Of a stretch of DNA of 64,000 nucleotides, positions 1,428 to 55,704 are shown piece after piece (position 1 is the first letter of the stretch; each line of letters begins with the position of its first letter). The DNA is taken from positions 1-64,000 of the IMG/VR virus record IMGVR_UViG_3300046787_000206; one strand, given 5' to 3'. Position numbers and translations under genes: made by a program. The notes under the pieces were generated by a model. It was not told the origin of the DNA. It saw only the letters and a list, made by a program, of their open reading frames with translations, and made no database searches. The stretch comes from a virus.

Positions 1428-1455
1428 TTGACAACATGTGGAAAGTTATTAAACT
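1428..1455 (+). promoter_or_regulatory. Probable promoter of the tRNA region
   Basis: A perfect TTGACA (1428-1433) and TAAACT (1450-1455) with a 16-base spacer lie just after the GNAT stop and about 100 bases before the first structured RNA. Confidence 0.5.
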
Positions 1456-1513
1456 TGATACCACTACAGATGCGTCTTCTCCTTTCTGTCGTTTGTAGTT
1501 GTTTGGTGAACAG

Positions 1514-1544
1514 CGGCCCCAAGTCCCCCCTTCGCTTGGGGCCG
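1514..1544 (+). terminator. GC-rich hairpin before the RNA genes
   Basis: CGGCCCCAAG (1514-1523) pairs perfectly with CTTGGGGCCG (1535-1544) around an 11-base C-rich loop. There is no T tract after it. It could be a terminator for the GNAT operon or a processing hairpin at the 5' end of the RNA transcript. Confidence 0.45.
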
Positions 1545-1554
1545 TATCACCTAA

Positions 1555-1634
1555 GGGCCTGAAATGGTGTCGATTGCTTCTCAAAGCCGCTAGTCGGAGG
1601 AAGTAAGACCACAGTTCGATTCTGTGCAGGTCCA
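1555..1634 (+). ncRNA. tmRNA-like RNA without a tag domain (about 80 nt)
   Basis: GGGCCTG (1555-1561) pairs with CAGGTCC (1627-1633), followed by A at 1634. CACAG/CTGTG with loop TTCGATT (1610-1626) is a standard T arm. There is no normal D or anticodon arm: no 5-bp stem with a 7-base loop fits. Instead the 5' part GAAATGGTGTCGATT resembles the stemless D-loop of tmRNA (GGGGCTGAA.GGTTTCGAC in actinobacteria), and AAGAC before the T arm resembles the tmRNA GGAC. TTGCTTCT (1574-1581) pairs with GGAAGTAA (1599-1606) like tmRNA helix P2, capped by a CCG/CGG hairpin. Pseudoknots and a tag reading frame are missing. The 3' end is ACGA, not CCA. Confidence 0.55.
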
Positions 1635-1704: not shown

Positions 1705-1776
1705 TGCCCGCTGGCGCAATGGCAGCGCAAGAAGCTGTTAACTTCGAGGTTCCTGGTTCGAGTCCAGGGCGGGCAG
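1705..1776 (+). tRNA. tRNA-Asn (GTT)
   Basis: The acceptor TGCCCGC/GCGGGCA is perfect, the D stem is GCGC/GCGC, and the anticodon loop CTGTTAA carries GTT. The T arm is CCTGG/CCAGG with loop TTCGAGT. The discriminator is G at 1776 and CCA is not encoded. The outermost anticodon pair (A-G) is mismatched. Confidence 0.9.
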
Positions 1777-1777
1777 C

Positions 1778-1848
1778 TATAGAAGTCCCCTTCTTCTATA
1801 CGGCTCGGTACTCATGCCGTCAAATGAGTATCCGTACCAGATGCGAGT
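1778..1848 (+). other. Inter-tRNA hairpins
   Basis: TATAGAAG (1778-1785) pairs with CTTCTATA (1793-1800). TACTCAT (1809-1815) pairs with ATGAGTA (1824-1830). They may be RNase cleavage sites for maturing the flanking RNAs. No gene is seen. Confidence 0.4.
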
Positions 1849-1855
1849 TCTGGAA

Positions 1856-1935
1856 GAGTCGATGGTGTAACGGCAGCACATCTCCCACTGACGAGTGGAC
1901 AAAGAGAAGGTACGGGTTCAAATCCCACAGACTCA
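1856..1935 (+). tRNA. Degenerate tRNA-like sequence, possibly Val (GAC)
   Basis: The D arm GTGT/GCAC with loop AACGGCA is good and the T loop is TTCAAAT, but the T stem has only three pairs (GGG/CCC). The acceptor has five pairs (GAGTC/GACTC) followed by two mismatches. CTGACGA fits an anticodon loop with GAC, yet its stem has two inner mismatches. A competing CCAC/GTGG stem would give a 6-base loop. It may be a decaying or strongly atypical tRNA. Confidence 0.35.
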
Positions 1936-2090
1936 CTCAAAGGAATGCTCTGAACAAGTGTTCCTGCGATGTATCACTACTGAAACCTATCCCTGTGGAA
2001 GCATCATACGAAGGCGTTCAGGCTGATGGAGATTGCTCTGCGACCCCACTAGGTAGTGACAGCTGGCAGGCTTACCCGTGGCCAGCACAT
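1936..2090 (+). other. Non-coding spacer in the tRNA region
   Basis: No T-loop signature or coding signal is seen. A perfect 6-bp hairpin GCTGGC (2062-2067)/GCCAGC (2081-2086) sits just before tRNA-Thr and could guide 5' maturation. Confidence 0.4.
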
Positions 2091-2166
2091 GCCTCCTTAG
2101 CTCATCTGGTAGAGTGCCTCACTTGTAATGAGGATGTGGCGGGTTCAAGTCCTGCAGGAGGCTCCA
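2091..2166 (+). tRNA. tRNA-Thr (TGT)
   Basis: The acceptor GCCTCCT/AGGAGGC is perfect and the D stem is GCTC/GAGT. The anticodon arm is CCTCA/TGAGG with loop CTTGTAA carrying TGT. The T arm is GCGGG/CCTGC. The discriminator is T and CCA is encoded at 2164-2166. Confidence 0.92.
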
Positions 2167-2267
2167 GTCTGTCAATGGATAGCGTGACTGAACGTGTACT
2201 ACGGACCATTGGCCCTGAAGATGAGCAGGTTAGGGTAGCACCCTTACACAAAACAGCCTCATCACAT
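2167..2267 (+). other. Non-coding spacer in the tRNA region
   Basis: It contains CAATGG/CCATTG, GATGAG/CTCATC and AGGGT/ACCCT inverted repeats, which suggest a folded RNA. No tRNA or protein gene can be supported. Confidence 0.4.
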
Positions 2268-2342
2268 GTCGGAGTAGAGAAGTTCGGTTATCTCGCCAGC
2301 CTCATAAGCTGGAGCTCGCAGGTTCAAATCCTGCCTCCGCCT
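2268..2342 (+). tRNA. tRNA-Met (CAT)
   Basis: The D stem is GAGA/TCTC, the anticodon arm CCAGC/GCTGG with loop CTCATAA (CAT at 2303-2305), and the T arm GCAGG/CCTGC with loop TTCAAAT. The acceptor GTCGGAG/CTCCGCC has one mismatch (T2-C71). It lacks the G-C run of an initiator anticodon stem, so elongator Met is more likely. A CAT anticodon modified to read Ile AUA cannot be excluded. Confidence 0.85.
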
Positions 2343-2583
2343 CGACTTACCCCTGCGGTTCGTAACTGTTCAGCACCTCGCAAGAGACTAAGTGGTAAGC
2401 AATGCCTGTAGGGCTGACTCTGGGATGAGTATGTCCAGGAGCGATTACAGGTAAAACTAGCTCCTCTTCATCTTTCGGGATTGATTAGGTTTAGTAGTAA
2501 CAACAGGTTAGACCTCGCTTCTGCAGAAGTAAGCTGACCTCCCGACAGTCGGGCGTGTGTAGACAACGATAGGTTCGCTCCAA
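2343..2583 (+). other. Non-coding spacer in the tRNA region (241 nt)
   Basis: No coding signal or T-loop consensus is present. AGGAGC (2437-2442) pairs with GCTCCT (2460-2465), and a short CCCGA/TCGGG hairpin lies near 2542-2554. The function is unknown. The spacer is far longer than the usual gap between phage tRNAs. Confidence 0.4.
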
Positions 2584-2669
2584 GGAAGCACGCCGAAGTA
2601 GGAGAGTCGGGGCGGTCTGTAAAACCGTTGGGTGCACCTGAGTGGGTTCAAATCCCTCTGCTTCCACCA
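2584..2669 (+). tRNA. tRNA-Tyr (GTA)
   Basis: A class II tRNA with a long variable arm. The acceptor GGAAGCA/TGCTTCC is perfect and the D stem is CCG/CGG. The anticodon arm GCGGT/ACCGT has loop CTGTAAA (GTA at 2619-2621). The T loop is TTCAAAT. CCA is encoded. Confidence 0.93.
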
Positions 2670-2822
2670 ACAGCGGAACCCTTCGCACATCTAACCAGTG
2701 TGCCTACAGTTCTGCTGGGCCCACATCTGTTCGTACGGAGTGGTGCTCCCTTGGTCCTGCAGGACCTTGTCGGGGTGTGGGTTAGCCAGAGTAGCCGAGC
2801 ATTTGCCACGGGCTCTGGGTAT
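2670..2822 (+). other. Non-coding spacer in the tRNA region
   Basis: It holds GCACA (2685-2689)/TGTGC (2699-2703) and the perfect palindrome GGTCCTGCAGGACC (2753-2766). GGGTA at 2817-2821 also complements the acceptor 3' half (TACCC) of the following tRNA-Trp. Confidence 0.4.
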
Positions 2823-2896
2823 GTCGGTAAAGTGTTACGGTAGCACGGCGGTCTCCAACACCGCAAGCCCAGGTTCGACTCCTGGTACCCTCGCCA
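2823..2896 (+). tRNA. tRNA-Trp (CCA)
   Basis: The D stem is GTGT/GCAC, the anticodon arm GCGGT/ACCGC with loop CTCCAAC (CCA at 2855-2857), and the T arm CCAGG/CCTGG with loop TTCGACT. The discriminator is G and CCA is encoded. The acceptor GTCGGTA/TACCCTC has mismatches at pairs 2 and 3. GGGTA just upstream offers a competing partner for the 3' strand. Confidence 0.85.
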
Positions 2897-2897
2897 A

Positions 2898-2972
2898 TCC
2901 CCATTCGTCTAATTGGCAAGACGCTAGTTTCTGGTGCTGGTTATCGAGGTTCGAGTCCTTGGTGGGGAGCCA
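2898..2972 (+). tRNA. tRNA-Gln (CTG)
   Basis: The acceptor is TCCCCAT/GTGGGGA, the D stem GTCT/AGAC, the anticodon arm CTAGT/GCTGG with loop TTCTGGT (CTG at 2931-2933), and the T arm CGAGG/CCTTG. The discriminator is G and CCA is encoded. It starts two bases after tRNA-Trp. Confidence 0.9.
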
Positions 2973-3112: not shown

Positions 3113-3487
3113 ATGTCGAAGAAAAAAGATAAGAGAATCGCCCATGCCGAAATGGTATGGGAGCGTGAGCAACTGCAGGCTGCCCTGGCAGTAGAGAAGA
3201 TTGACAAGTCCCTCTTTGTTATTGAAGAGTATAAAGACGAGCTAACTGACGAGCAGATTGAGAACATCCGCCTTCAGGTTCAGAATCAGCGTACAGAGAT
3301 TGAGAAGTTCCTGATGGCCGCTAGGGACAAGTTCGCAGCAAAACTGAATGAGTACAACCTTGAGGCTGTAATTGCCGACAGGCACGGCCTGGACCTCTCT
3401 AAGGCCCGTTCTATGACCCTTGACGAGGTTGTGGAGTCACGCATGGCCAGCGGCAACTTCGTTAAAGTGGATATTGAGGACCTATAA
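3113..3487 (+). CDS. Hypothetical coiled-coil protein
   Basis: A 124-residue protein that starts with a Lys-rich stretch (MSKKKDKR) and continues as charged heptad-like helix from about 10 to 100. It has no membrane segment and no recognised motif. AAGGAG lies nine bases before the ATG. Its stop overlaps the start of the zinc-ribbon gene (TAATG). It is the first protein gene after the tRNA terminator. Function unknown. Confidence 0.8.
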   Translation: MSKKKDKRIAHAEMVWEREQLQAALAVEKIDKSLFVIEEYKDELTDEQIENIRLQVQNQRTEIEKFLMAARDKFAAKLNEYNLEAVIADRHGLDLSKARSMTLDEVVESRMASGNFVKVDIEDL

Positions 3488-22995: not shown

Positions 22996-23322
22996 ATGGC
23001 AACCACATACAAAGTTTTCGGTCAGGCTAACCCTTCGGCTACTACTGCGACGACTCTTTACACCGTCCCTGCCGCTACTCAGGCAATTGTCAATAACTTG
23101 ACTATCTGTAACCAGGGTGCCGCTGGCACTTTCCGTGTCGCTGTTCGTCCCGCTGGAGCCACTTTGGCTGCGCAGCACTACCTAGCGTACGACACCCCTA
23201 TTGCTGCTAATGACAGCATCACTCCTGGATTCACAATTTCTATGGGGGCTACTGACGTCCTTACTGTTTACGTATCTACTGCAAACATGAGCATCACCGC
23301 TTCTGGGGTAGAGCTGACCTAA
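22996..23322 (+). CDS. Small fibre-associated beta protein
   Basis: A 108-residue protein rich in Ala, Thr and Val, predicted all-beta (TTLYTVPAATQAIVNNLTICNQ ... TVYVSTANMSITASGVELT). It resembles small domains attached to phage fibres and the protein at 24479. AGGAG lies ten bases upstream of the start. Coupled to the glycine-rich adhesin that follows. Confidence 0.7.
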   Translation: MATTYKVFGQANPSATTATTLYTVPAATQAIVNNLTICNQGAAGTFRVAVRPAGATLAAQHYLAYDTPIAANDSITPGFTISMGATDVLTVYVSTANMSITASGVELT

Positions 23323-24167
23323 TGAAATACTCGTCGTCTATTCAGCGCTCCAGTATAAAGACCTTTGTCAGGTCGGTGAACTCACGGGGTGCTTTTGTGC
23401 CTGTTCCACCTGTAGTTACTGGTGGGACACTGACCTCAGACTCAACCTATTACTACCGCACTTTTACTGGTAACGGGAACCTAGTGGTCTCTAACTCCAA
23501 TTTAACGGCAGATGTACTCATTGTTGCTGGTGGTGGCGGAAGTGGTAACGGTAACGGAAGCGGTTACGAGGCTGGTGCTGGTGGTGCTGGTGGAGTTATC
23601 CAACTCACATCACAAAGCATCTCTACGGGAACATTTGCAATTGCTATCGGTGCTGGAGGTGGCGGCGCTGTACAGGGCACAAATACTACTGCGCTATCTT
23701 TGTCTGCCGTTGGTGGAGGTTATGGCGCTAGCGGAAACACCACAGGTGGTGCTGGTGGTTCTGGTGGTGGTGGCGCTCACCCTTCTACTGCTGGTGGTGC
23801 TGGAACAGCTGGACAAGGTTATGCGGGCGCAACTCCATCAAAGACATCATCAGGTGGTGGTGGTGGTGGAGCCGCAGAGCCAGGAAATACCGATGGCCCA
23901 GGCTCAGGTGGAGACGGAATTCTCTGGCTAGACGGCAACTATTATGGCGGCGGTGGTGCTGGAAACCAGGCTGCAGATGGAATTCAAGGAACACCTGGAC
24001 TGGGTGGTGGTGGCTCCTGCTCAACTAGCCTAAATGCTGCTGCAACAGCGGGAACGGCAAATACTGGTGGCGGTGGCGGTGGCCCACTAAACCAAAACGG
24101 TGGCGCTGTTGCTGGTGGTTCTGGAATTGTTATTGTTCGTTATCTAAAGACAGCGGTGGCAGCATAA
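23322..24167 (+). CDS. Glycine-rich adhesin 1
   Basis: A 281-residue protein. After a basic N-terminus and a TLTSDSTYYYRTFTGNG strand pair, residues about 65-275 are glycine-rich (GAGGAGG, SGGGGAHP, GGGGGG) and end in SGIVIVRYLKTAV. This matches the glycine-rich domain of phage adhesins, in which many parallel polyglycine-II helices form a sandwich with variable loops for receptor binding. It carries the first copy of a 50-bp exact repeat. Confidence 0.85.
   Translation: MKYSSSIQRSSIKTFVRSVNSRGAFVPVPPVVTGGTLTSDSTYYYRTFTGNGNLVVSNSNLTADVLIVAGGGGSGNGNGSGYEAGAGGAGGVIQLTSQSISTGTFAIAIGAGGGGAVQGTNTTALSLSAVGGGYGASGNTTGGAGGSGGGGAHPSTAGGAGTAGQGYAGATPSKTSSGGGGGGAAEPGNTDGPGSGGDGILWLDGNYYGGGGAGNQAADGIQGTPGLGGGGSCSTSLNAAATAGTANTGGGGGGPLNQNGGAVAGGSGIVIVRYLKTAVAA
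23427..23476 (+). repeat. 50-bp exact direct repeat, copy 1
   Basis: It begins ACACTGACCTCAG and ends TAACGG, and is identical to 27111-27160. It encodes the strand pair before the glycine-rich domain in adhesins 1 and 3. Confidence 0.95.
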
Positions 24168-24475
24168 TGGCAGCGATTGATTTTCCTAACTCCCCAACAG
24201 TGGGTCAGGCACTCACCGTAGGTGGTAAAACTTGGGTATGGGACGGGGTCACCTGGAACGCCAAGACAACACTAACTCGTGCTGTGTCTGATACCGCACC
24301 TACTTCTCCTGTGACTGGTGACGAGTGGTTCAACTCTGCTACTGGTCGTTTGTACACTTACTACGACTCTTATTGGGTTGAAATTGGCGCTAGTGTTGCT
24401 GGTGCTACTGGTCCAGCAGGTGCAACCCCAACCGCTGGAAAAATCATTGCTATGTCGATTGTCTTTGGAGGATAA
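24167..24475 (+). CDS. Small fibre protein (FPNSP family)
   Basis: A 102-residue protein. The N-terminal module IDFPNSPTVGQ ... GKTWVWDGVTW is followed by one TAPTSPVTGDEWFN ... YYDSYWVEIG unit and a short collagen-like GATGPAGAT. The same modules recur at 26691, 27929 and 29407 (FPNSP) and at 22495 and 27929 (YYDSYW). It probably forms the base of a trimeric fibre or chaperones the adhesin. Confidence 0.75.
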   Translation: MAAIDFPNSPTVGQALTVGGKTWVWDGVTWNAKTTLTRAVSDTAPTSPVTGDEWFNSATGRLYTYYDSYWVEIGASVAGATGPAGATPTAGKIIAMSIVFGG

Positions 24476-24478
24476 TAA

Positions 24479-24838
24479 ATGACTGCACCTAACATCGTAA
24501 ACGTAACAGCTATTACTGGAAAAACTTCAGTTCTTCTGCCTACTACAACTGCGACGGACATTGTGGCAAATGCCAGCTCGTCTTCTACTTTGGTAAAGAT
24601 TAACTCTCTTGTTGTCGCAAATGTTAACGGCACCTCAGCAGCTACTATCACAGCGTCTATTTATCGCTCGTCTACTGAGTACAAAGTCGCCCACGTAATT
24701 TCAGTACCTGCTGGTGCAACATTAATTGTTCTAGATAAGGCTTCTCAGATTTATCTAGAAGAAGGTGACTCTCTTCGTTTGACCGCATCAGCAAACTCGT
24801 ACCTAAGTGCGGTTTGCTCGTATGAAATAATCGCCTAA
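24479..24838 (+). CDS. Small fibre-associated beta protein
   Basis: A 119-residue protein, all-beta in pattern (TSVLLPTTTATDIVANASSS ... VSVPAGATLIVLDKAS), ending SYLSAVCSYEIIA. It resembles the protein at 22996 in length and strand order. GGAGG lies ten bases upstream. It lies directly before glycine-rich adhesin 2 and overlaps it by one base, suggesting an adhesin and partner pair as with the genes at 22996 and 23322. Confidence 0.7.
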   Translation: MTAPNIVNVTAITGKTSVLLPTTTATDIVANASSSSTLVKINSLVVANVNGTSAATITASIYRSSTEYKVAHVISVPAGATLIVLDKASQIYLEEGDSLRLTASANSYLSAVCSYEIIA

Positions 24839-25836
24839 TGACTAAGAGTCACGCAGGTATAGGAAACTACATAGGTGCCCTTGGTTCCTATGCTACTGGT
24901 GGAAACTTTACACTTAGGTCCGCCCAACAGTTAGCGACTTCGGGTAGCTGGGGAAACATTCAGATTACTGGTGTGCAGTACCTGGTCATTGCTGGTGGTG
25001 GCGGTGGAGGTGCCTTTGGTCAAGGTGGTGGAGGCGGTGCTGGAGGTTACCGTTCATCAGTTACTGGTGAAGCTTCGGGAGGCGGAGCTTCTGCGGAGAG
25101 CACGATTACGCTACTATCTGGCCAGCAGTACACGGTTACCGTTGGTGCTGGAGGTGCTGGGGGTAGCACGGATGGGTCAGTAGGAACTACTGGGAGCTCA
25201 TCTGTACTGGCAACTATAACCTCCCTCGGTGGTGGTGGTGGTGGCTCTGGAGCAAATACTGGCCTAACTGGTGGTTCTGGTGGTGGTGGTGGTGGTGCCA
25301 ACGGTGGTGCAGGAACATCGGGTCAAGGTTACCGAGGCGGTAATCAGACTGGCGCTGGCGGAAGTAACTACCCTTACACCTGGCGTACTGCTGGCGGTGG
25401 CGGTTCTGGTGGCCAAGGTGCTGACGGAAGCTACGACTCTGGTGGCCGTACAGGTGGTGCGGGAACTACTTCAAGTATTACTAGCTCCTCAGTAACTCGT
25501 GCTGGTGGTGGAGGTGGTTCTGGTAGCCCTAACTCTACTGGTGCAGGTCAAGCAGGTGGCGGTGACGGAGCTAAGGTAGGTGAGCCGTTTGCTTGCTGTA
25601 ACTCTAACGCTACTGCAGGAACTGCAAACACTGGCGGCGGTGGCGGCGGTGGTGGTAACTACAACTATGACCGAACAGCTAACCTAGTAGGCCAAGCAGG
25701 TGGTTCAGGAGTCGTAGTACTTAGGTACTCAACTTCATTTCCAGCAGCGGCTGCTACAACTGGCTCCCCAACGTACACCGTATCTGGTGGTTACAGAATC
25801 TACCAGTGGAACGCCTCTGGCTCTATAACTTGGTAA
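24838..25836 (+). CDS. Glycine-rich adhesin 2
   Basis: A 332-residue protein. A short N-terminal part is followed by a glycine-rich region (about residues 45-295) with runs such as GGGGGGA and GGAGTSGQGYRGG, closing with GSGVVVLRYS. A C-terminal beta module (about 305-332, YTVSGGYRIYQWNASGSITW) is also present at the end of adhesin 5. It is probably a receptor-binding protein of the polyglycine-II type. Confidence 0.85.
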   Translation: MTKSHAGIGNYIGALGSYATGGNFTLRSAQQLATSGSWGNIQITGVQYLVIAGGGGGGAFGQGGGGGAGGYRSSVTGEASGGGASAESTITLLSGQQYTVTVGAGGAGGSTDGSVGTTGSSSVLATITSLGGGGGGSGANTGLTGGSGGGGGGANGGAGTSGQGYRGGNQTGAGGSNYPYTWRTAGGGGSGGQGADGSYDSGGRTGGAGTTSSITSSSVTRAGGGGGSGSPNSTGAGQAGGGDGAKVGEPFACCNSNATAGTANTGGGGGGGGNYNYDRTANLVGQAGGSGVVVLRYSTSFPAAAATTGSPTYTVSGGYRIYQWNASGSITW

Positions 25837-25866
25837 CAAAAATTATTTAGAAAGTATTGGTGCAAG

Positions 25867-26649
25867 ATGCCGAATGGTGGAATTATAGGCCCAGCTAATG
25901 CCATCAGTGGCGGTGTAGCAAGAGGAATTTGGAGACTAGAGGAAGAGTACTCTGCTATTAAGGCAGCTACTTGGCCAATGCCGTTCTCTATAATCACCTC
26001 AGGATTGATTTTAAACTTAGATGCGGGGAATACGGCCTCGTATCCAGGTTCAGGAACTACCTGGACTGACCTAAGCGGGAATGGGTACCACGGAACCCTA
26101 GTTAATGGGCCCACGTACAGCTCCTCGGGGAGCGGCAGCATTGTTTTTGATGGGATTGACGACTACGTTTCTGGAACCCTGCCTTCGACCGCTGTAACCA
26201 ACATCACTCTTCAGGGCTGGGTAAACGTACAGCCTGGTCGTAAAGGTCCGTTCTTTCGTTTCGGCAGCAATAACGGAGGCTATTCTATCGGTCAGGGCTC
26301 GTCCTACTACACTCAAACAGGGCAAGAGATTGTAATACTGTTCTCGGCTATACGATGGATAAGCACAGGCGTTAACTGGGATACTGGTTGGCAAATGGTT
26401 ACTCTGGTGTTGGATTCGTCAGGTATCCCTAGCGCCTATAAAAATGGTACTTTAATAGGTAGTTACTCAGGGGCAACCTCTAGTGCGCCATCGGGGTCTT
26501 ACGAGCTCGCTAGAGTAATTGGTGATGAGCCAGGAGGCGGTGGACCTTGGACAGGTAACGCATCAACCTTTTGGGCGTATAACCGAGCGTTATCTTCTAC
26601 GGAAATTACTCAAAACTTCAACACAACTCGTGGCCGCTTCGGTATCTAA
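25867..26649 (+). CDS. LamG/concanavalin-like lectin protein
   Basis: A 260-residue protein. Residues about 45-255 form a LamG-type jelly roll: LILNLDAGNTASYPGSG, WTDLSGNGYHGTL, FDGIDDYV, then WQMVTLVLDSSG and AYNRALSSTEITQNFN. This is a typical carbohydrate-binding domain of phage and bacterial surface proteins, and here it likely binds host glycans. The ribosome binding site is weak. About 40 non-coding bases separate it from adhesin 3. Confidence 0.85.
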   Translation: MPNGGIIGPANAISGGVARGIWRLEEEYSAIKAATWPMPFSIITSGLILNLDAGNTASYPGSGTTWTDLSGNGYHGTLVNGPTYSSSGSGSIVFDGIDDYVSGTLPSTAVTNITLQGWVNVQPGRKGPFFRFGSNNGGYSIGQGSSYYTQTGQEIVILFSAIRWISTGVNWDTGWQMVTLVLDSSGIPSAYKNGTLIGSYSGATSSAPSGSYELARVIGDEPGGGGPWTGNASTFWAYNRALSSTEITQNFNTTRGRFGI

Positions 26650-26690
26650 GTAGCCCAATAAAACTTTTAGTAAGAAGGTAAAATCGACTT

Positions 26691-27929
26691 ATGGCTATTG
26701 ACTTTCCTAACTCCCCAACAGCAGGGGATACTTATACCGTAAATGGTAAGACTTGGTCTTACACGGGCTCCCGTTGGGAGAATGTAGTCACGTCTTTAAC
26801 AAAGGCCGTAAGAAATGTCAGCGCAGACACTGCGCTAGCCTCTGGCGATAAAAACCAAATCGTTAGATTTACAGGCTCTTCTGCTCAGACTCTTACAGTA
26901 AACAATGTTTTGTCTGCAGGAGACTCCACTAGTGTATTTCAGGATGGCACGGGAGCAGTAAATCTTACTGCTGGCTCTGGCGTGACTCTGATGAGCCCAG
27001 CTACGTTTGCTACCAGAAAACAATACTCTAAAGTAGACATTAACTGCGTAGCGTCGGGCCAATACCGACTTTCAGGAGACCTGGTCACTGGTGCTACCGT
27101 AACTGGCGGAACACTGACCTCAGACTCAACCTATTACTACCGCACTTTTACTGGTAACGGCACGCTTCTAGTTGAAAATGCTGGATTGGCTGTAGACATT
27201 CTTGTCATCGCTGGCGGAGGCTCTGGTGGTGCTGGAACTGGTGGTGGTGGTGGTGCTGGTGGTCTAATTAACATCTCAGGTTACCCACTTACCGCATCTT
27301 CATACACAGTAACTATTGGTGCTGGTGGCACAAATGACTCGGTAGACATCGGAACCTCTGGAGTTAACACCACCGTTAGTAACGGGGCCAGAACCCTTAC
27401 TGCTCTAGGTGGCGGTTACGGTGGTTCCTCTGAAACTGGGTCACCTGGACCAACTTTCAACGCTGCAAGTGGTGGCTCAGGCGGTGGTGCCCAAGGATAC
27501 TACGCTGGAAACACTACTCCAGGCTCGGCAACACAGCCGTCTACAACTAATGACGGCGTAGCAACTTACGCTACTACAGGTTTTGGTAACGCTGGAGGCT
27601 CTCCAAACACAATTCCACAAGGCCACTCTGGTGGTGGTGGTGGTGCTGGTGCCGCAGGTGCTAACGGAACTACGGGTGCTGGTGGTGCGGGTCTACAGCT
27701 AAGCATCTCAGGAACTGCTCAATGGTATGCAGCTGGAGGTTCTGGTGGCGCAAACGGAACAACTTCAACAAATGGCATAGGTGGTTACCACGTATCTCCT
27801 AGCGGCACCGCAGGTGCCACTAACACAGGCTCAGGTGGCGGTGGTGGATACGGTCACGCTGACGGATTTGGTGGCGCTGGTGGTTCTGGAATCGTTATTG
27901 TTCGCTACCTCAGAACGGCGGTTGTATAA
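26691..27929 (+). CDS. Glycine-rich adhesin 3
   Basis: A 412-residue protein. It has an N-terminal FPNSP module (residues 1-35), a beta domain (about 45-130, SSAQTLTVNNVL ... YRLSGDLV) that is also found in the protein at 27929, and the strand pair encoded by the 50-bp repeat. A glycine-rich domain follows (about 165-405), ending SGIVIVRYLRTAV. It is thus a fusion of modules that are separate genes elsewhere in the island. Confidence 0.85.
   Translation: MAIDFPNSPTAGDTYTVNGKTWSYTGSRWENVVTSLTKAVRNVSADTALASGDKNQIVRFTGSSAQTLTVNNVLSAGDSTSVFQDGTGAVNLTAGSGVTLMSPATFATRKQYSKVDINCVASGQYRLSGDLVTGATVTGGTLTSDSTYYYRTFTGNGTLLVENAGLAVDILVIAGGGSGGAGTGGGGGAGGLINISGYPLTASSYTVTIGAGGTNDSVDIGTSGVNTTVSNGARTLTALGGGYGGSSETGSPGPTFNAASGGSGGGAQGYYAGNTTPGSATQPSTTNDGVATYATTGFGNAGGSPNTIPQGHSGGGGGAGAAGANGTTGAGGAGLQLSISGTAQWYAAGGSGGANGTTSTNGIGGYHVSPSGTAGATNTGSGGGGGYGHADGFGGAGGSGIVIVRYLRTAVV
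27111..27160 (+). repeat. 50-bp exact direct repeat, copy 2
   Basis: It is identical to 23427-23476, in the same orientation and the same reading frame of a homologous adhesin. Confidence 0.95.
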
Positions 27930-28528
27930 TGGCTATTGATTTTCCTAACTCCCCAACGCTAAACCAAACGCACTCAGTATCTGGTCGCACATGGACTTGG
28001 AACGGCACTACCTGGGATACTCAAACAGCCGCTGCTGGTAAATACCTTGTATCTGATACGGCCCCATCTAGCCCTACTACTGGAGATTCGTGGTTTGACT
28101 CCGTTTCAGGTAAGTTCTTCATCTACTACGACAGTTACTGGGTAGAGTTCGGCACCTCTTCAGGGCCTACTGGAGCTGCGGGCACTAACGGTACCAATGG
28201 AACTAACGGTACCAATGGTGTTGATGGAGGCTTTAACTCAGCACAGACTATAGACAGCAAGTCTGCTGCTTATACCCTTGTATCTGGTGACGCTGGCAAA
28301 CTGATTACCAACTCGGCTGCGGTCACCATTACTGTGCAGGGACTGTCTGTAGGTCAGCAGGTTGACTTCTTGCAGACTAACGCCTCGCAGTTTACGTTTA
28401 CCGCAGGTGCGGGTATGACTTTGGTGTCTAAAGGCTCAAAGCTAAAGACCTCCGCCCAATACTCCCCTGCAACTATTAAGTGCATCGCTACTAACTCATA
28501 CGTTCTTATCGGAGACTTGGCTGCGTAA
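27929..28528 (+). CDS. Fibre protein with FPNSP, YYDSYW and collagen-like modules
   Basis: A 199-residue protein. The FPNSP module (1-30) is followed by one TAPSSPTTGDSWFD ... YYDSYWVEF unit, a collagen-like G-T-N triplet run (about residues 83-97) and a C-terminal beta domain (about 105-198, SAAYTLVSGDAGKLITNSAA) related to the middle of adhesin 3. Similar beta domains occur in tail fibres of marine phages. Overlaps with both neighbours by one base show tight coupling. Confidence 0.8.
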   Translation: MAIDFPNSPTLNQTHSVSGRTWTWNGTTWDTQTAAAGKYLVSDTAPSSPTTGDSWFDSVSGKFFIYYDSYWVEFGTSSGPTGAAGTNGTNGTNGTNGVDGGFNSAQTIDSKSAAYTLVSGDAGKLITNSAAVTITVQGLSVGQQVDFLQTNASQFTFTAGAGMTLVSKGSKLKTSAQYSPATIKCIATNSYVLIGDLAA

Positions 28529-28989
28529 TGGCTTGGTCTGCAGGATTAGTAGGTGCCGCAGGGGCTAGTTTAACCAACCTTGTAGTATTTGACGCTACAA
28601 CGGGCCCTAATAGCTCCGTCACTGGTGGCTGGCACTATGAGCACTGGGATGGTGGAACCCAGGTTTCTATTGGAACAAGCTCCACTGCGGTGTACACCTA
28701 CGCACCATACTGGTCTAACGGTGCTGCGGTTGCCAATAACAACATTGACACTACTGGCGCTGTCTCAGTCACAGTAGAAGTTGAAGGTAACGCAGCTTCG
28801 TATGGATACGCTGGTGTGAGCTTCCCTGGTGGAGGAATCACGGTCGTTGCTGACGGAAGCATAAACAGCCGTCCTAGGACAACCTTAACGGGGGCGGTAA
28901 CTAACGGTGGTGTTGGAAAGCTTAACTTCTGGGCCGCTAACACCTATAACTACTGCTACCTCTACAAGGTAGTAATTAACTATGTTTAA
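28528..28989 (+). CDS. Fibre-associated beta protein
   Basis: A 153-residue protein of all-beta pattern (VTGGWHYEHWDGGTQVSIG ... CYLYKVVINYV), without cysteine pairs or repeats. It has no recognised family. The one-base overlap with the preceding fibre gene and a short gap after it put it in the same adhesin unit. It could be a carbohydrate-binding domain. This is only inferred from its composition and place. Confidence 0.65.
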   Translation: MAWSAGLVGAAGASLTNLVVFDATTGPNSSVTGGWHYEHWDGGTQVSIGTSSTAVYTYAPYWSNGAAVANNNIDTTGAVSVTVEVEGNAASYGYAGVSFPGGGITVVADGSINSRPRTTLTGAVTNGGVGKLNFWAANTYNYCYLYKVVINYV

Positions 28990-29035
28990 ACTCAATAACT
29001 TCTGTAAAATGAAGACAATCTAAGGAGAAACAACT

Positions 29036-29386
29036 ATGGCTCACTGGGCTGAACTTGATGAAAATAACGTCGTCCTACGGGTACTAGTAGGAGACAACAA
29101 CGACCCTAATGGTGACGAAGGTTACCAGTGGTTGGTTGACAACCTTGGTGGAACCTGGGTTAAGACCTCGTACAACGCTACTATCCGTAAGAACTACGCA
29201 GGTATCGGCTACGTCTTTGATGAAGAGCGTGATGCGTTTCTTCCTCCTAAGCCATACGATTCATGGATTCTAGACGAAGAGACTGCTCGCTGGTACGCCC
29301 CTGTAGAACGCCCTGCCGATGACGGCTTCTACGAATGGGATGAAGAGACCCTTAGCTGGGTAGCTTTTGAGGCCCCTGCGGTATAG
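29036..29386 (+). CDS. Conserved fibre-region protein with Trp-rich repeats
   Basis: A 116-residue acidic protein beginning MAHWAELDENNVVLRVLVG. A middle part, GYQWLVDNLGGTWVKTSYN ... RKNYAGIGYVFDEERDAF, is followed by two W-Y-based units (YDSWILDEETARWYAPV and YEWDEETLSWVAF). This is a protein type seen near fibre genes of aquatic myoviruses. It has a good AAGGAG site. It probably contributes to virion structure. Its biochemical role is unknown. Confidence 0.72.
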   Translation: MAHWAELDENNVVLRVLVGDNNDPNGDEGYQWLVDNLGGTWVKTSYNATIRKNYAGIGYVFDEERDAFLPPKPYDSWILDEETARWYAPVERPADDGFYEWDEETLSWVAFEAPAV

Positions 29387-29406
29387 TCGCAGGGTAAACT
29401 TGTTAC

Positions 29407-29730
29407 ATGCCCGCTATTGACTTTCCTAATGACCCTACCGCAGGGCAGGCCTTTACCTCTAACGGTAAGACTTGGATTTGGAGCGGAAGCATTTGGGCAC
29501 TCCGTACCACTACCGCTCAGCTAACTGCGTATGACATTGCCGTTAACAACGGTTTTGTGGGCACCGAAGCTCAGTGGCTAACTTCTCTTAGAGGGGCTAC
29601 GGGAGCTACGGGCGCTGCTGGGCCTCAGGGCCCTGCAGGAAACCTGTACGGTAATCTTGACGGTGGAGCGTCTAACAGCACTTACGGCGGGCTTACAGCC
29701 ATCTCTGGCGGAAACTGGAACGGTGTCTAA
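29407..29730 (+). CDS. FPNDP-module protein with collagen-like segment
   Basis: A 107-residue protein. Residues 1-32 are the FPN module (AIDFPNDPTAGQAFTSNGKTW). AYDIAVNNGFVGTEAQWLTSLRG, a well-known short phage fibre motif that precedes collagen-like triplets, follows at about 42-64, then GATGATGAAGPQGPAG. The end is Gly/Asn-rich. The stop overlaps the next start. Confidence 0.78.
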   Translation: MPAIDFPNDPTAGQAFTSNGKTWIWSGSIWALRTTTAQLTAYDIAVNNGFVGTEAQWLTSLRGATGATGAAGPQGPAGNLYGNLDGGASNSTYGGLTAISGGNWNGV

Positions 29731-30302
29731 TGGCAGTTCAAATACAATGGCGTCGTGATACAGCAGCTAACTGGACTGCTAACAACCCTACTCTTGCTCA
29801 GGGTGAACCTGCTTACGAGACCGACACAAACAAATTCAAGATTGGTAACGGCTCAACCGCTTGGAACTCTCTTGCTTACGGCGGCCTTTCAGGCGTAATG
29901 AACAGCCCAATCATTACAGGTGCGGGACAAGAAACTATCGCAATTCGCCCCGTATCATTTGCTGGTTCAAATGTCGACTTGTCATATGGGGCGGTCCACT
30001 ACTTCATATCAAATGCCACGGCTAATGGCGCTATAAACATTCGTTATAGCTCCACCGTTTCTCTAAACTCTTTTATGGCAGTCAATACCTCTGTGTCTAT
30101 CATCCTGGACATCACTAACGGTTCAACTGCTTACTACCCGACTAGCTTCACTATCGACGGTACTTCTGTAACCCCTAAGTGGAACGGTGGCACAGCCCCT
30201 ACTAGTGGAAACGCTTCTTCTATTGACCGCTACGCAATCACTATCGTGAAGACAGCCTCAGCAACTTATACCGTATACGCAACTCAAGTTAAATTCGCCT
30301 AG
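29730..30302 (+). CDS. Tail fibre protein with head-binding-like N-terminus
   Basis: A 190-residue protein. The N-terminus IQWRRDTAANWTANNPTLAQ, then GEPAYETDTNKFKIGNGSTAW, is a repeat known from many phage fibres and tropism determinants. The rest (about residues 60-190) is a beta domain. It probably anchors or caps a fibre that carries adhesin 4. The gene is coupled to its upstream neighbour by a one-base overlap. Confidence 0.82.
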   Translation: MAVQIQWRRDTAANWTANNPTLAQGEPAYETDTNKFKIGNGSTAWNSLAYGGLSGVMNSPIITGAGQETIAIRPVSFAGSNVDLSYGAVHYFISNATANGAINIRYSSTVSLNSFMAVNTSVSIILDITNGSTAYYPTSFTIDGTSVTPKWNGGTAPTSGNASSIDRYAITIVKTASATYTVYATQVKFA

Positions 30303-30311
30303 GAGTAACAC

Positions 30312-31670
30312 ATGCCATTTTTGGGTGTCGCTGGTCTTGGCGGACTTTTTGCGTTTCTGAAAGCTGAATCAAAGCCAACTGATGTATTTGGTGGGGTTCT
30401 TTCTGAAGACTCAACTTATTTTTATCGTACCTTTCGTGGCAGCGGCTCTTTTACAGTAACTGGAGGAACTCTGGCTGCTGATGTGCTTGTTATCGCAGGC
30501 GGTGGTGGCGGTCAGGGTGGCGGCGGCGGCGCTGGAGGCCTTCAAGGATTCCTTTCTCAAAAGTTAACTCCGACTTCGTACACAGTTACTGTTGGTTCTG
30601 GTGGCGCTAATAACGCATCAGGAACTAATTCTCAGTTTGGTAGTTTGACCGCATCTGTAGGTGGCGGCTATGGCGGTTCATGGCAGCAAGCATCGGGTGG
30701 TTCTGGCGGTTCTGGTGGAGGTGGTGCTGGTACACAAAACTCTAGCAATGCTACTGGTGGCGCTGGAACTGCTGGCCAAGGAAACGTAGGTGGTGGCGGT
30801 TGGACTGGAGGCGCTTCTCCGCTTGGTGGTGGCGGTGGTGGTGGTGCGGGCAGTGCAGGAACAACTGCTACTAGCACAACTGGTCAACCAGGCGGAAACG
30901 GTGTAGCCACGTACTCTTCTTGGCATACTGCTACTGGTACAGGGGTATCGGGATACATCGCTGGTGGCGGTGGCGGTGGCGGTTCAGCCGCAGGTTCTGC
31001 GGGCGGCTCTGGCGGTGGCGGTACAGGTAACTATGGCTCTCCTACTGCAGGTGCAAGTAATACAGGCTCAGGCGGTGGAGGTTCCTATACTGTTAGTGGA
31101 GGTGCTGGAGGTTCTGGTATTGTCATTGTGCGCTATGAAAAAACAGCTGTGCAAGCGTCTACTAGTGCTTATGAGCTTATTGGAACTATTTCTCTAACCT
31201 CTGCACAAACGTCAGTAACTTTTTCTGGAATTCCTGGTAGCTATAAGCACCTGCAGGTAAGGATGCTAACTAGAAGTGATTTTGGTAGCACAAGCGACGC
31301 TCTGAATATACAAGTAAATGGAGATACAACTGCTTCATATAGCCGCCACTGGCTTGAAGGTAACGGCTCTAGTGTTGGCGGATTTGTTGACACCTCTGCC
31401 ACTAAAGCCTGGCTGGGCCGAACTGTTGCGGATGGAAATACAGCAAATGTTTACACTCCCTGGATTGTCGACATTTTGGACTACGCACAAACAAATAAAA
31501 ATACCACGATACGCAGCTTTAGTGGCAATGTGGTAGGCACAATTAACTATGTGACATTTGCATCGGGGCTTTGGTATAAAACACCTGCGGTTACATCGTT
31601 GACATTCTTAAACAATACTGGTGGATATAAATCTGGTTCACGCTTTTCACTTTATGGGATACGAGGTTAG
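30312..31670 (+). CDS. Glycine-rich adhesin 4 with C-terminal SLYGI beta domain
   Basis: A 452-residue protein. The strand pair (LSEDSTYFYRTFRGSG) and glycine-rich domain (about residues 55-275, ending SGIVIVRYEKTAV) are followed by a beta domain (about 287-452). The beta domain starts YELIGTISLTSAQTSVTFSG and ends SRFSLYGIRG. The same beta domain is a stand-alone protein in the next gene and N-terminal in adhesin 5. AGGAG lies upstream. Confidence 0.85.
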   Translation: MPFLGVAGLGGLFAFLKAESKPTDVFGGVLSEDSTYFYRTFRGSGSFTVTGGTLAADVLVIAGGGGGQGGGGGAGGLQGFLSQKLTPTSYTVTVGSGGANNASGTNSQFGSLTASVGGGYGGSWQQASGGSGGSGGGGAGTQNSSNATGGAGTAGQGNVGGGGWTGGASPLGGGGGGGAGSAGTTATSTTGQPGGNGVATYSSWHTATGTGVSGYIAGGGGGGGSAAGSAGGSGGGGTGNYGSPTAGASNTGSGGGGSYTVSGGAGGSGIVIVRYEKTAVQASTSAYELIGTISLTSAQTSVTFSGIPGSYKHLQVRMLTRSDFGSTSDALNIQVNGDTTASYSRHWLEGNGSSVGGFVDTSATKAWLGRTVADGNTANVYTPWIVDILDYAQTNKNTTIRSFSGNVVGTINYVTFASGLWYKTPAVTSLTFLNNTGGYKSGSRFSLYGIRG

Positions 31671-31673
31671 TCC

Positions 31674-32171
31674 ATGGCAGACGCATTAGTACAGTTGGCT
31701 ACTATCACCCTTACATCTGCGCAGTCTTCGGTGGTGTTTTCTAACATACCTACAAATGGATTTAAGGATTTACACCTTGTCTGTAAGCTGGGAGTATCTA
31801 GCGCCAACGGTGGTGGATTTATTTTTAATAATGACACTACTAGTGGAAACTACTCTTGGGTTCAAATGCTTGGTAGTGGCTCGTCTACCTTATCTAACTC
31901 AGGTGCTCTAGCTAACAATAGTATGGCTATTTCACCAAACTACAACTTACCTACATCTTTAAGTTTAAATTTTACAATGGACATTATGGATTACTCTGCG
32001 ACTGATAGACATAAGACTATGATTTGGCGAGCAGACGACGCAGCTCAAAATACCCTAGCGATTGTTGGGCGCTGGGCAAGCACGAATGCCATTACTAAAA
32101 TTGACTTGTCAGCTAACGTCACTACCTGGCTTGCTGGAAGCACCTTCTCTTTGTACGGAGTAGTAGCGTGA
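31674..32171 (+). CDS. Stand-alone SLYGI beta-domain protein
   Basis: A 165-residue protein consisting only of the beta domain seen at the C-terminus of adhesin 4: LATITLTSAQSSVVFSNIP near the start, MDIMDYSATDRHKTM in the middle (compare VDILDYAQTNKNTTI in adhesin 4), and STFSLYGVVA at the end. The next gene overlaps its stop by four bases with a GTG start. It may act as an accessory or alternative receptor-binding tip. Confidence 0.8.
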   Translation: MADALVQLATITLTSAQSSVVFSNIPTNGFKDLHLVCKLGVSSANGGGFIFNNDTTSGNYSWVQMLGSGSSTLSNSGALANNSMAISPNYNLPTSLSLNFTMDIMDYSATDRHKTMIWRADDAAQNTLAIVGRWASTNAITKIDLSANVTTWLAGSTFSLYGVVA

Positions 32172-33565
32172 GTTATACCTTAATTTCTACACAGACTGTC
32201 GGAGCTGGTGGAGCTGCAAGCATTGATTTTACAAGCATTCCTCAGACTTACACTGATTTGATTGTTGTCTTTTCTCTACGAGGAACAGTGTCTGCGGGAG
32301 TTAGCAACGTAAAGCTTACATTTAATGGTTCAACAACAGGCTATTCTGGTAGAACACTTATGGGCTTTGGCTCTGGAGCAGGTTACTCTGAAACAAACGT
32401 TGACCAGTATTCAACTCCGTGGCCTTTTATCAATCTTTATGCCAATGTCGGCAGCACATCTACAGCCAGCACCTTTTCAAATGGTTCACTATTAGTGCCT
32501 AATTATACGGGAAGCGCTAATAAGTCTGTAAGCATCGATTGGGTAAATGAGACTAATGCGACTGCAGCTTGGTCTGGTATTAACGCAGGGCTCTGGTCTA
32601 ACACCTCAGCAATTACCTCACTCAGTCTCGGTGCCTACTCTGGAAACTTTGTGCAATACTCAACCGCATCACTTTACGGTATAAACCGTATTCCTACAGC
32701 TACTCTAGGAACTACTCCTACAGTTGACTACCTGGTAGTCGCTGGTGGAGGTACTGGCGGAGGCTATGTAGGTGGTGGCGGTGGAGCTGGCGGTCTTCTA
32801 ACTGGTTCGGCTTTTTCCGTTGCTTCAGGCTCACCTATTACCATCACCGTAGGTGCGGGTGGTGCAGGTGGCGCTGGCTCGGTCAGCAATGGTAGCAGCT
32901 CTACCTTCAGCTCAGTAACTGCCGTTGGTGGTGGACGTGGTGGTCAGGGTGGTGGCGGTGGCCAAGGTCCCGCAACCTCTGGTGGTTCAGGCGGTGGTGG
33001 TGGTTCGTCTACAGCTTCACCATCGACGCTGGTTGGTGGTGCTGGAACTTCTGGTCAAGGATTTGCTGGCGGTAATTCTGGAGGCATGGGTGGCTCGTAT
33101 CCATCTGGTGGTGGTGGTGGAGCTGCTGCAGTAGGAGTATCTCCAGCATCGACTAGTACAGGCGGTGGAAACGGTGGGGCGGGTGCAGTTAGCACTCTTA
33201 CTGGTACTACTATGTACTACGCAGGTGGTGGCGGTGGAGCTAACTCTAACGCTAGCGTTTACTTGCCTGGAACTGGTGGTCTTGGTGGTGGAGGAAATGG
33301 TGCACTGCATAGCAACGCCGATGGTTCGGTGGTTACTCCTGCTACAGCTGGACTAGCAAACACTGGCGGTGGCGGCGGTGGCGGAGGCTCTGCGGTCGGT
33401 AGTGGTAGCTCAAATACTTCTCTAAGTGGTGGTTCTGGTGTGGTTATTATCCGCTACCCAGATACTTACAACCCACCTTCAGCTACTACAGGTTCCCCAT
33501 CTGTCAAGTACATCAATGGTTACAGGGTGTATACCTGGACCGCATCTGGTTCAATTACTTTCTAG
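32168..33565 (+). CDS. Glycine-rich adhesin 5 with N-terminal SLYGI beta domain
   Basis: A 465-residue protein starting at GTG. Residues about 1-175 are the SLYGI beta domain (YTLISTQTVGAGGAASIDF ... ASLYGINR). About 185-430 is glycine-rich, ending GSGVVIIRYPD. About 435-465 is the YINGYRVYTWTASGSITF module shared with adhesin 2. The domain order is the reverse of adhesin 4. Confidence 0.85.
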   Translation: MSYTLISTQTVGAGGAASIDFTSIPQTYTDLIVVFSLRGTVSAGVSNVKLTFNGSTTGYSGRTLMGFGSGAGYSETNVDQYSTPWPFINLYANVGSTSTASTFSNGSLLVPNYTGSANKSVSIDWVNETNATAAWSGINAGLWSNTSAITSLSLGAYSGNFVQYSTASLYGINRIPTATLGTTPTVDYLVVAGGGTGGGYVGGGGGAGGLLTGSAFSVASGSPITITVGAGGAGGAGSVSNGSSSTFSSVTAVGGGRGGQGGGGGQGPATSGGSGGGGGSSTASPSTLVGGAGTSGQGFAGGNSGGMGGSYPSGGGGGAAAVGVSPASTSTGGGNGGAGAVSTLTGTTMYYAGGGGGANSNASVYLPGTGGLGGGGNGALHSNADGSVVTPATAGLANTGGGGGGGGSAVGSGSSNTSLSGGSGVVIIRYPDTYNPPSATTGSPSVKYINGYRVYTWTASGSITF

Positions 33566-54684: not shown

Positions 54685-55704
54685 ATGCAAGTTCCAGAAG
54701 AGGTGTTAGACAAAGGTCTGACACCTAGGCAGTATTTCCTGCTCGCTCACCTATACCGCAACGTTGACCGTTGGGGTGAAGTTCACCTAACTTCAGAAGA
54801 GCTAGAGCAGTTGACTAACACTAGTCGCACGACCGTTTGGCGTGACATGACTGTTCTGGAAGACCTTGGTTTGGTAGACACTTATCGCACTAAACGAAAC
54901 TACGGCAAGCTACACAAGAACGTGTATAAGCTAATCTCACCATGTTTCCAGCCAGAAACATTGCCCGAAGAACCATGTTTCACACCAGAAACATCGGAGC
55001 CTGAGGGTAAATCTCTATGTTTCCCGCCAGAAACATCAACAGCTGACCAAGGTAGTCATAAGCTATTAACTACTACTACAGTTAAAGAATTAAATACTTC
55101 GTATTTAATTTACACCGACGCCCCTGGCGTCGTTGTCAAAAAGAAATCTAGGAGGGAGAATAAACCTATGAACAAATGGCAAGACGATGATGACATCGGC
55201 GGATTCGGACTACTGGAGGGTGAAGTTCCTGCAGCACAGCGCCAGAAGCCTGTGAGCAAGAGGGACCCTAGGACTCGTGTAAACCGTCCACAGCATGAAT
55301 GGACTGCACAGGATGTAGCCTCAGAGTTTGCTGCACGGATGTACGACAAGGTCCGTGGAGTACCGAACCTGGTGAACGTTGGAAAGTTGGCAATCATCAT
55401 TGCCAGCTATCGCAAAAAGTATGGGCTAACTCCGTTGCTGGAACTGGACGTCTTGGACATGATGATGTCTGACGACCGCCGTATCGGAAGCATCAAGAAG
55501 CAGCCAACGGACGCTTACAAGATGTTTTTGAAGATGCTCGCAACCCACAACCAGAAGGCCGTTCAGAATCTCGGGCTAGAGAATCTTGACTCACCGACCG
55601 TAGACGAGTATGTTTATGCTTCAGACGGAAAACGTTTCGATAACTCGATGTTTGGTCGCAAGGCCATGAAGAGTTACGAAGAACAACTAGGGACAAACGC
55701 ATGA
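54685..55704 (+). CDS. Replication initiator-like DNA-binding protein
   Basis: A 339-residue protein. The N-terminal winged-helix part (about residues 10-75: LTPRQYFLLAHLYRN ... HLTSEELEQLTNTSRTTVWRDMTVLEDLGLVDTYR) resembles RepA/phage initiators. The linker (about 85-118) repeats CFxPET three times. These repeats are encoded by three copies of a 20-bp inverted repeat. A C-terminal helical domain follows (about 205-335). An in-frame ATG at 55168 follows GGAGGG and could start a 178-residue second product. It overlaps the AAA+ loader gene, as in the lambda O-P pair. GAGGG precedes the first ATG. Confidence 0.8.
   Translation: MQVPEEVLDKGLTPRQYFLLAHLYRNVDRWGEVHLTSEELEQLTNTSRTTVWRDMTVLEDLGLVDTYRTKRNYGKLHKNVYKLISPCFQPETLPEEPCFTPETSEPEGKSLCFPPETSTADQGSHKLLTTTTVKELNTSYLIYTDAPGVVVKKKSRRENKPMNKWQDDDDIGGFGLLEGEVPAAQRQKPVSKRDPRTRVNRPQHEWTAQDVASEFAARMYDKVRGVPNLVNVGKLAIIIASYRKKYGLTPLLELDVLDMMMSDDRRIGSIKKQPTDAYKMFLKMLATHNQKAVQNLGLENLDSPTVDEYVYASDGKRFDNSMFGRKAMKSYEEQLGTNA
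54942..55036. repeat. Three iterons ATGTTTC-N6-GAAACAT inside the initiator gene
   Basis: The copies lie at 54942-54961, 54975-54994 and 55017-55036. Each is a perfect 7-bp inverted repeat with a 6-base centre. Start-to-start spacings are 33 and 42 bases. They are likely initiator binding sites and part of the replication origin. Confidence 0.75.
55088..55110. promoter_or_regulatory. AT-rich inverted repeat beside the iterons
   Basis: AATTAAATAC (55088-55097) pairs with GTATTTAATT (55101-55110) around TTC, in an AT-rich stretch about 50 bases after the last iteron. It could be the DNA unwinding element of the origin. Confidence 0.55.

Follow-up and report, generated by a model that had tools for sequence, protein, structure and literature searches.

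A phage-borne family of transfer-messenger RNAs reduced to the tRNA-like domain and its possible role as a decoy in host trans-translation

The window analyzed here is the first 64,000 nucleotides of a 94,962-bp virus record (IMG/VR record IMGVR_UViG_3300046787_000206). At positions 1555–1634 it carries a short element that, as judged from its sequence, is a derivative of transfer-messenger RNA (tmRNA), by which bacteria free stalled ribosomes, reduced to the tRNA-like domain (TLD). The initial annotation of this DNA had described a 7-bp acceptor, a T arm, a stemless D-loop, a P2-like helix and an AAGAC motif at exactly these positions, and all of these are in the sequence (Table 1). It had also suggested looking for the element in related phages, where it was indeed found, at 127 loci representing 101 distinct sequences that include the nearest cultured kin of the window phage. 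By comparative evidence the family is a real, conserved TLD-only tmRNA that is restricted to phages as far as tested. Our preferred reading, to which we assign a probability of about 0.58, is that the element is a phage tmRNA reduced to its TLD which, when charged with alanine, would serve as a decoy in competition with host tmRNA and would inhibit trans-translation in a dominant-negative manner or re-route it.

The structure of the element is far beyond chance. In a MAFFT alignment of 21 relatives that predated any model, 99.3% of the cells were paired and the covariation score was 0.461, versus 0.111 upon shuffling (none of 500 shuffles reached 0.461). An alignment of 100 distinct members fitted to a covariance model gave the same answer, with 98.0% paired cells and 600 double-changed cells versus 175 in shuffled alignments. 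The covariation score of the latter alignment was 0.693; shuffling lowered it to 0.153 and sliding the partners to 0.10 or less. All four helices covary, and changes on both sides were seen in 18 of the 22 pairs. The minimum-energy fold of the window sequence alone is not the TLD (−27.2 versus −22.7 kcal/mol for the TLD structure) and thus the structure rests on the comparative evidence, single-sequence folding having been set aside as uninformative.

Two signatures of tmRNA are nearly or wholly invariant. The sequence RGAC precedes the T arm in 100 of the 101 distinct members, and all members have the G3·U70 pair in the acceptor stem. As position 70 was left unspecified in several of the pattern searches and in the BLAST matches, the conservation of this pair can be read from the 73 distinct sequences recovered in that manner, all 73 of which have G·U at 3:70 (these sequences are related and hence are not 73 independent trials). 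The neighbouring pairs 4:69 and 5:68 each show five pair types across the whole set. A single transition would convert G·U to G-C, yet this change is absent, which argues that alanylation matters. In tmRNA the G·U pair at 3:70 is completely conserved and is a potent identity determinant for alanyl-tRNA synthetase (PMC3985003).

The family was assembled by several searches. A pattern covering the 5′ part only (TGAAATGGTGTCGATT...GAC) matched 19 IMG/VR stretches, and a complete TLD of about 80 nt was present in all 19. Looser patterns, BLAST and a covariance model built from 21 sequences (R1) extended the set to the full membership, the sequences being 65–85 nt in length and scoring 42–105 bits with R1. 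Matches that overlap tRNAs and other sequence on the member loci scored at most 26 bits, and loose-pattern matches in that range, which is that of ordinary tRNAs, were left out of the family. The full-length tmRNAs tested scored at most 27 bits. Scans of 84,980 genomes of bacteria and archaea with two exact patterns, run without a positive control, found no match, and 58 viral contigs matched when the second pattern was loosened slightly. A divergent relative of about 89 nt, in which G3·U70 is present and the capped arm is longer, is found in Microbacterium phages (Dismasvirus and Armstrongvirus), where it scores 28–32 bits and adjoins tRNA-Asn/Gln or tRNA-Gln (L132, 1439–1527; L171, 338–427; L172, 339–427).

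Many members are recognized by the Rfam tmRNA model. RF00023 scored above its gathering threshold in 37 of the 50 records holding relatives and, in a separate test, at 20 loci, in at least 14; three of these records also carry a full-length tmRNA. These matches are nearly always of about 70–85 nt and span model positions 1–374; that is, the message domain is deleted. On the window element Rfam (at the gathering threshold and at E ≤ 10) and ARAGORN gave neither tRNA nor tmRNA, and RF00005 was silent; the window clade is too diverged for detection by these programs. As the initial annotation had noted (it gave about 50 bases), the space between acceptor and T arm is small. We count 48 nt, nearly all of which is taken up by the D-loop, P2 and the hairpin, and a tag reading frame with a resume codon is absent. 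At 65–85 nt no member has room for pseudoknots PK1–PK4. A hidden mini-tag, whose frame would end at the TAA within GTAAGAC, was considered and rejected: a TAA or TAG triplet precedes GAC in only 47 of 101 members, so there is no conserved frame end, and members with cores of 33–38 nt hold little beyond the D-loop and one hairpin.

The annotation was also right that there is no anticodon arm. An arm of 5 bp with a 7-nt loop and U33 fits only 1 of the 101 distinct members, and together with the ARAGORN and Rfam results this rules out a normal or odd tRNA. A permuted or split tmRNA is ruled out by the order of the parts (acceptor, D, P2, T, acceptor), which is the standard one, and an attP/ssrA fragment by the presence and covariation of both acceptor halves. 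The annotation had set its reading against a normal tRNA fit and a lack of compensatory changes; what was found was no tRNA fit and ample compensatory change. Separately, the Ruegeria phage RpAliso (L133, ~1450–1700) has what is apparently a permuted two-piece tmRNA gene that is unannotated in its record.

The window element does not encode CCA, the discriminator A73 being followed by CGA, and ACCA is encoded in only 24 of the 101 members. The CCA end would therefore be added post-transcriptionally.

Table 1. Features of the element and its flanks in the window (columns 1–80 of the family alignment are window positions 1555–1634)
Feature	Positions	Strand	Evidence or remarks
Sigma-70-like promoter TTGACA-16-TAAACT, putative transcript start of element and tRNA array	1428..1455	+	Similar TTGA(C/A)A-16-TAnAnT upstream of L002, L003, L004, L013, L016, L017, L018
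Strong leader hairpin just 5′ of element	1505..1551	+	12-bp core 1513–1524/1534–1545; comparable hairpins in relatives
Whole TLD-only tmRNA-like RNA	1555..1634	+	103.8 bits with R1 (window sequence among its 21 builders); 101 distinct members
Acceptor stem, 5′ strand GGGCCTG, with G3 of G3·U70	1555..1561	+	100% paired in family
Stemless tmRNA-type D-loop AAATGGTGTCGA	1562..1573	+	GG..TCGAY motif in 95/101 distinct members
P2-like helix, 5′ strand (partner 1600–1606)	1574..1580	+	7/7 pairs changed on both sides; 95.9% paired
A-rich bulge	1581–1586	+	Family-alignment columns mapped to window
Capping hairpin CCG-CTAGT-CGG closing P2, in place of mRNA-like domain	1587..1597	+	Closing pair GC/AU/CG/UA; 94.1% paired
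P2-like helix, 3′ strand	1600..1606	+	Family covariation
AAGAC	1605–1609	+	GAC is 1607–1609, directly before T arm
T arm CACAG-TTCGATT-CTGTG	1610..1626	+	99.8% paired; double changes in 5/5 pairs
Acceptor 3′ strand CAGGTCC (1627–1633; U70 at 1631) and discriminator A73 (1634)	1627..1634	+	7 bp with 1555–1561
tRNA array 3′ of element (Asn, Thr, Met, Tyr, Trp, Gln), probably on the same transcript	1705..2972	+	Six tRNAs by ARAGORN, five of these by Rfam

Like standard bacterial tmRNA (RF00023), the family has an acceptor with G3·U70, a stemless D-loop, P2 and (A/G)GAC followed by the T arm. Unlike it, the family lacks the mRNA-like domain (resume codon, tag and pseudoknots), a loss of about 290 model positions. 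The closest precedent is found in mycobacteriophage DS6A, whose tmRNA consists of the TLD alone (Mao et al. 2009, as cited in PMC4131195 and PMC11915505), likewise a phage gene for the TLD of tmRNA from which the message domain has been lost, a comparison made with DS6A by description only. According to PMC4131195 and PMC11915505, a DS6A-like molecule, chargeable or not, strongly inhibits the endogenous tmRNA in E. coli, perhaps by titrating SmpB. DS6A is the sole TLD-only phage case named in those accounts, in contrast to the 101 distinct sequences from several phage groups found here, and the 2025 tmRNA database holds nine "standard, no CDS" entries among 97,179 tmRNA sequences (PMC11915505). 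The breadth of the TLD-only family appears to be new. The TLD-only tmRNA has so far been treated as a curiosity, and viral contigs hold about 100 distinct versions of it, placed in three or more genomic settings, which suggests that blocking or rewiring of host trans-translation may be a common phage strategy. The reduced tmRNA or tRNA-mimic decoy put forward in the initial annotation gains weight from the covariation, the invariant G3·U70, the Rfam tmRNA matches of many members and the DS6A precedent (PMC4131195; PMC11915505).

Loss of the coding region is also reported, in the accounts given in PMC11915505 and PMC3985003, for the tmRNAs of jakobid mitochondria and Mallomonadaceae plastids, which have been retained in evolution (Jacob 2004 as cited there). 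These tmRNAs resemble the phage family in having kept the TLD and lost the tag sequence (those of jakobids also lack pseudoknots), but they are organellar rather than viral and some are in two pieces. Full-length tmRNAs of the mycobacteriophage Bxz1 group and of Streptomyces phage Annadreamy are likewise phage-borne, and that of Annadreamy adjoins tRNAs; unlike the family they keep the message domain with its tag peptide, and those tested scored no higher than 27 bits against the family model.

Cultured carriers of the element are the Streptomyces phages BRock, LuckySocke, GiJojo, Alone3, pSt2308 and Riptide and the Pontimonas phage phiPsal1. The element is unannotated in these genomes, and in GiJojo it overlaps a "hypothetical protein". 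The nearest cultured kin of the window phage is the BRock group (60–62% identity in the major capsid protein and 50–52% in the terminase). In both, the element is part of a tRNA array that lies beyond the terminase gene as seen from the capsid gene, and from this shared position it appears to be conserved along that phage lineage. A tRNA on the same strand is found within 500 bp of 33 of the 101 distinct members. In one clade (L052, L053, L069, L105 and phiPsal1) the element lies between the genes of the head maturation protease and the major capsid protein, and in another (L041, L042, L054, L060, L086 and others) it is opposite to the neighbouring genes and has TATAAT or TATACT 6–7 nt before its first G. 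Such near −10 boxes occur at 17 of 98 loci versus 1.8 in shuffles, and a promoter as good as that of the window element at 11 of 98 loci versus 1.6. These promoter-like sequences suggest that the element is an independent RNA gene that is transcribed. Strong leader hairpins of differing sequence follow the shared promoter, 3–11 nt upstream of the element, in L002, L003, L004, L013, L016, L017, L018 and L072. Other RNAs are near the element in two contigs, a ROOL RNA (1831–2432) about 40 nt away in L085 and a Pistol ribozyme (3130–3201) about 320 nt away in L059.

In the mechanism we favor, the element and its tRNA array would be transcribed from their own promoter, and the transcript would be trimmed as a tRNA is and given CCA. 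Host alanyl-tRNA synthetase would then charge it with alanine, and the charged form would compete for SmpB, EF-Tu and stalled ribosomes with the tmRNA of the host. As it lacks a resume codon, tagging could not follow, and host trans-translation would be inhibited or re-routed during infection, presumably to the benefit of the phage. The decoy reading is favored because a similar molecule inhibits tmRNA, as described in PMC4131195 and PMC11915505. As G3·U70 is invariant, we infer that the charged form is used, in which case delivery by EF-Tu and the A site of the ribosome would probably also be competed for.

Several points weigh against this mechanism. Plain titration of SmpB would make charging dispensable, so the unbroken G3·U70 indicates that the element is not just a passive sponge, or else simply reflects inheritance, and the reason for a decoy to be chargeable is a puzzle raised by the conserved alanine identity pair. 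A full-length tmRNA is present beside the TLD-only RNA in three records (Riptide [W04, PV654398], 94862–95130; G014, 88065–88440; and G041, 55016–55391), a poor fit with a simple shutdown of trans-translation. In Riptide the D-loop of the TLD-only copy is degenerate; G014 and G041 appear to be close kin. Finally, the scans of prokaryotic genomes relied on exact patterns and lacked a positive control. Apart from these points, SmpB genes were looked for in the record of the window and in the 50 others, and none was found. Six of the cultured carriers (BRock, LuckySocke, GiJojo, Alone3, pSt2308 and phiPsal1) make the question directly testable.

A bolder proposal, which we regard as rather doubtful, is that several phage groups maintain, through strong selection, a dedicated alanine-charged mini-tmRNA either for tag-free ribosome rescue or for active rather than passive poisoning of trans-translation; if true, this would be a mode of ribosome rescue not known in bacteria. 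Tag-free rescue is also the main rival to the decoy mechanism. An alanine-charged TLD with SmpB would enter stalled ribosomes and take the nascent peptide, and the ribosome would be recycled with the peptide untagged, such that phage proteins made from broken mRNAs would be spared and the element would be a helper rather than an inhibitor. The strict G3·U70, which implies that the charged form matters, the retention of coding-sequence-free organellar tmRNAs and the phages holding both a TLD-only RNA and a full tmRNA are all in keeping with this scheme. We nevertheless consider it unlikely, as no known step frees the peptide from the TLD without resume and stop codons and a similar molecule inhibited tmRNA when expressed, by the account in PMC4131195.

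Less likely still is a role apart from SmpB as a decoy or a carrier of alanine, in which the element would sequester alanyl-tRNA synthetase or EF-Tu, feed an Ala-tRNA-dependent enzyme or absorb a host anti-phage toxin that targets tRNA. The invariant alanine identity element and T arm and the many copies within phage tRNA arrays agree with such a role, but it would require neither P2 nor the conserved tmRNA-specific GG..TCGAY motif of the D-loop. The same location in tRNA arrays, and between the head-protease and capsid genes in one clade, could mean that the element is processing punctuation, a tRNA-like fold at which RNase P and the tRNA 3′ nucleases would cut a polycistronic phage transcript. 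This we think very improbable: ordinary tRNAs would serve as well, G3·U70 and the tmRNA D-loop would be left unexplained, and the clade lying opposite to its neighbours with its close −10 box looks like a stand-alone RNA gene. Fragments from the 3′ part of ssrA are found at attP in phages integrating into that gene, and in some mycobacteriophages the match is limited to the 3′ end of the queries, but a relic (an option in the initial annotation) or a piece of a host tmRNA gene at an attachment site is scarcely credible given both acceptor halves covarying in 101 members, widespread conservation of the structure with compensatory changes, and conserved promoters.

Three further features of the window may be noted. 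Between the element and tRNA-Asn lies a very stable hairpin (1635–1698; −32 kcal/mol, z −4.4) followed by ACCA, and a hairpin of this type is not obvious downstream of the relatives inspected. Positions 1856–1935 hold a tRNA-like sequence that scores 22.7 bits, short of the cut-off, and whose anticodon arm is oversized: a TCTC/GAGA stem surrounds CCACT-GACG-AGTGG. Farther along, the region from about 23322 to 33565 encodes several consecutive glycine-rich, tail- or adhesin-like proteins that look paralogous.
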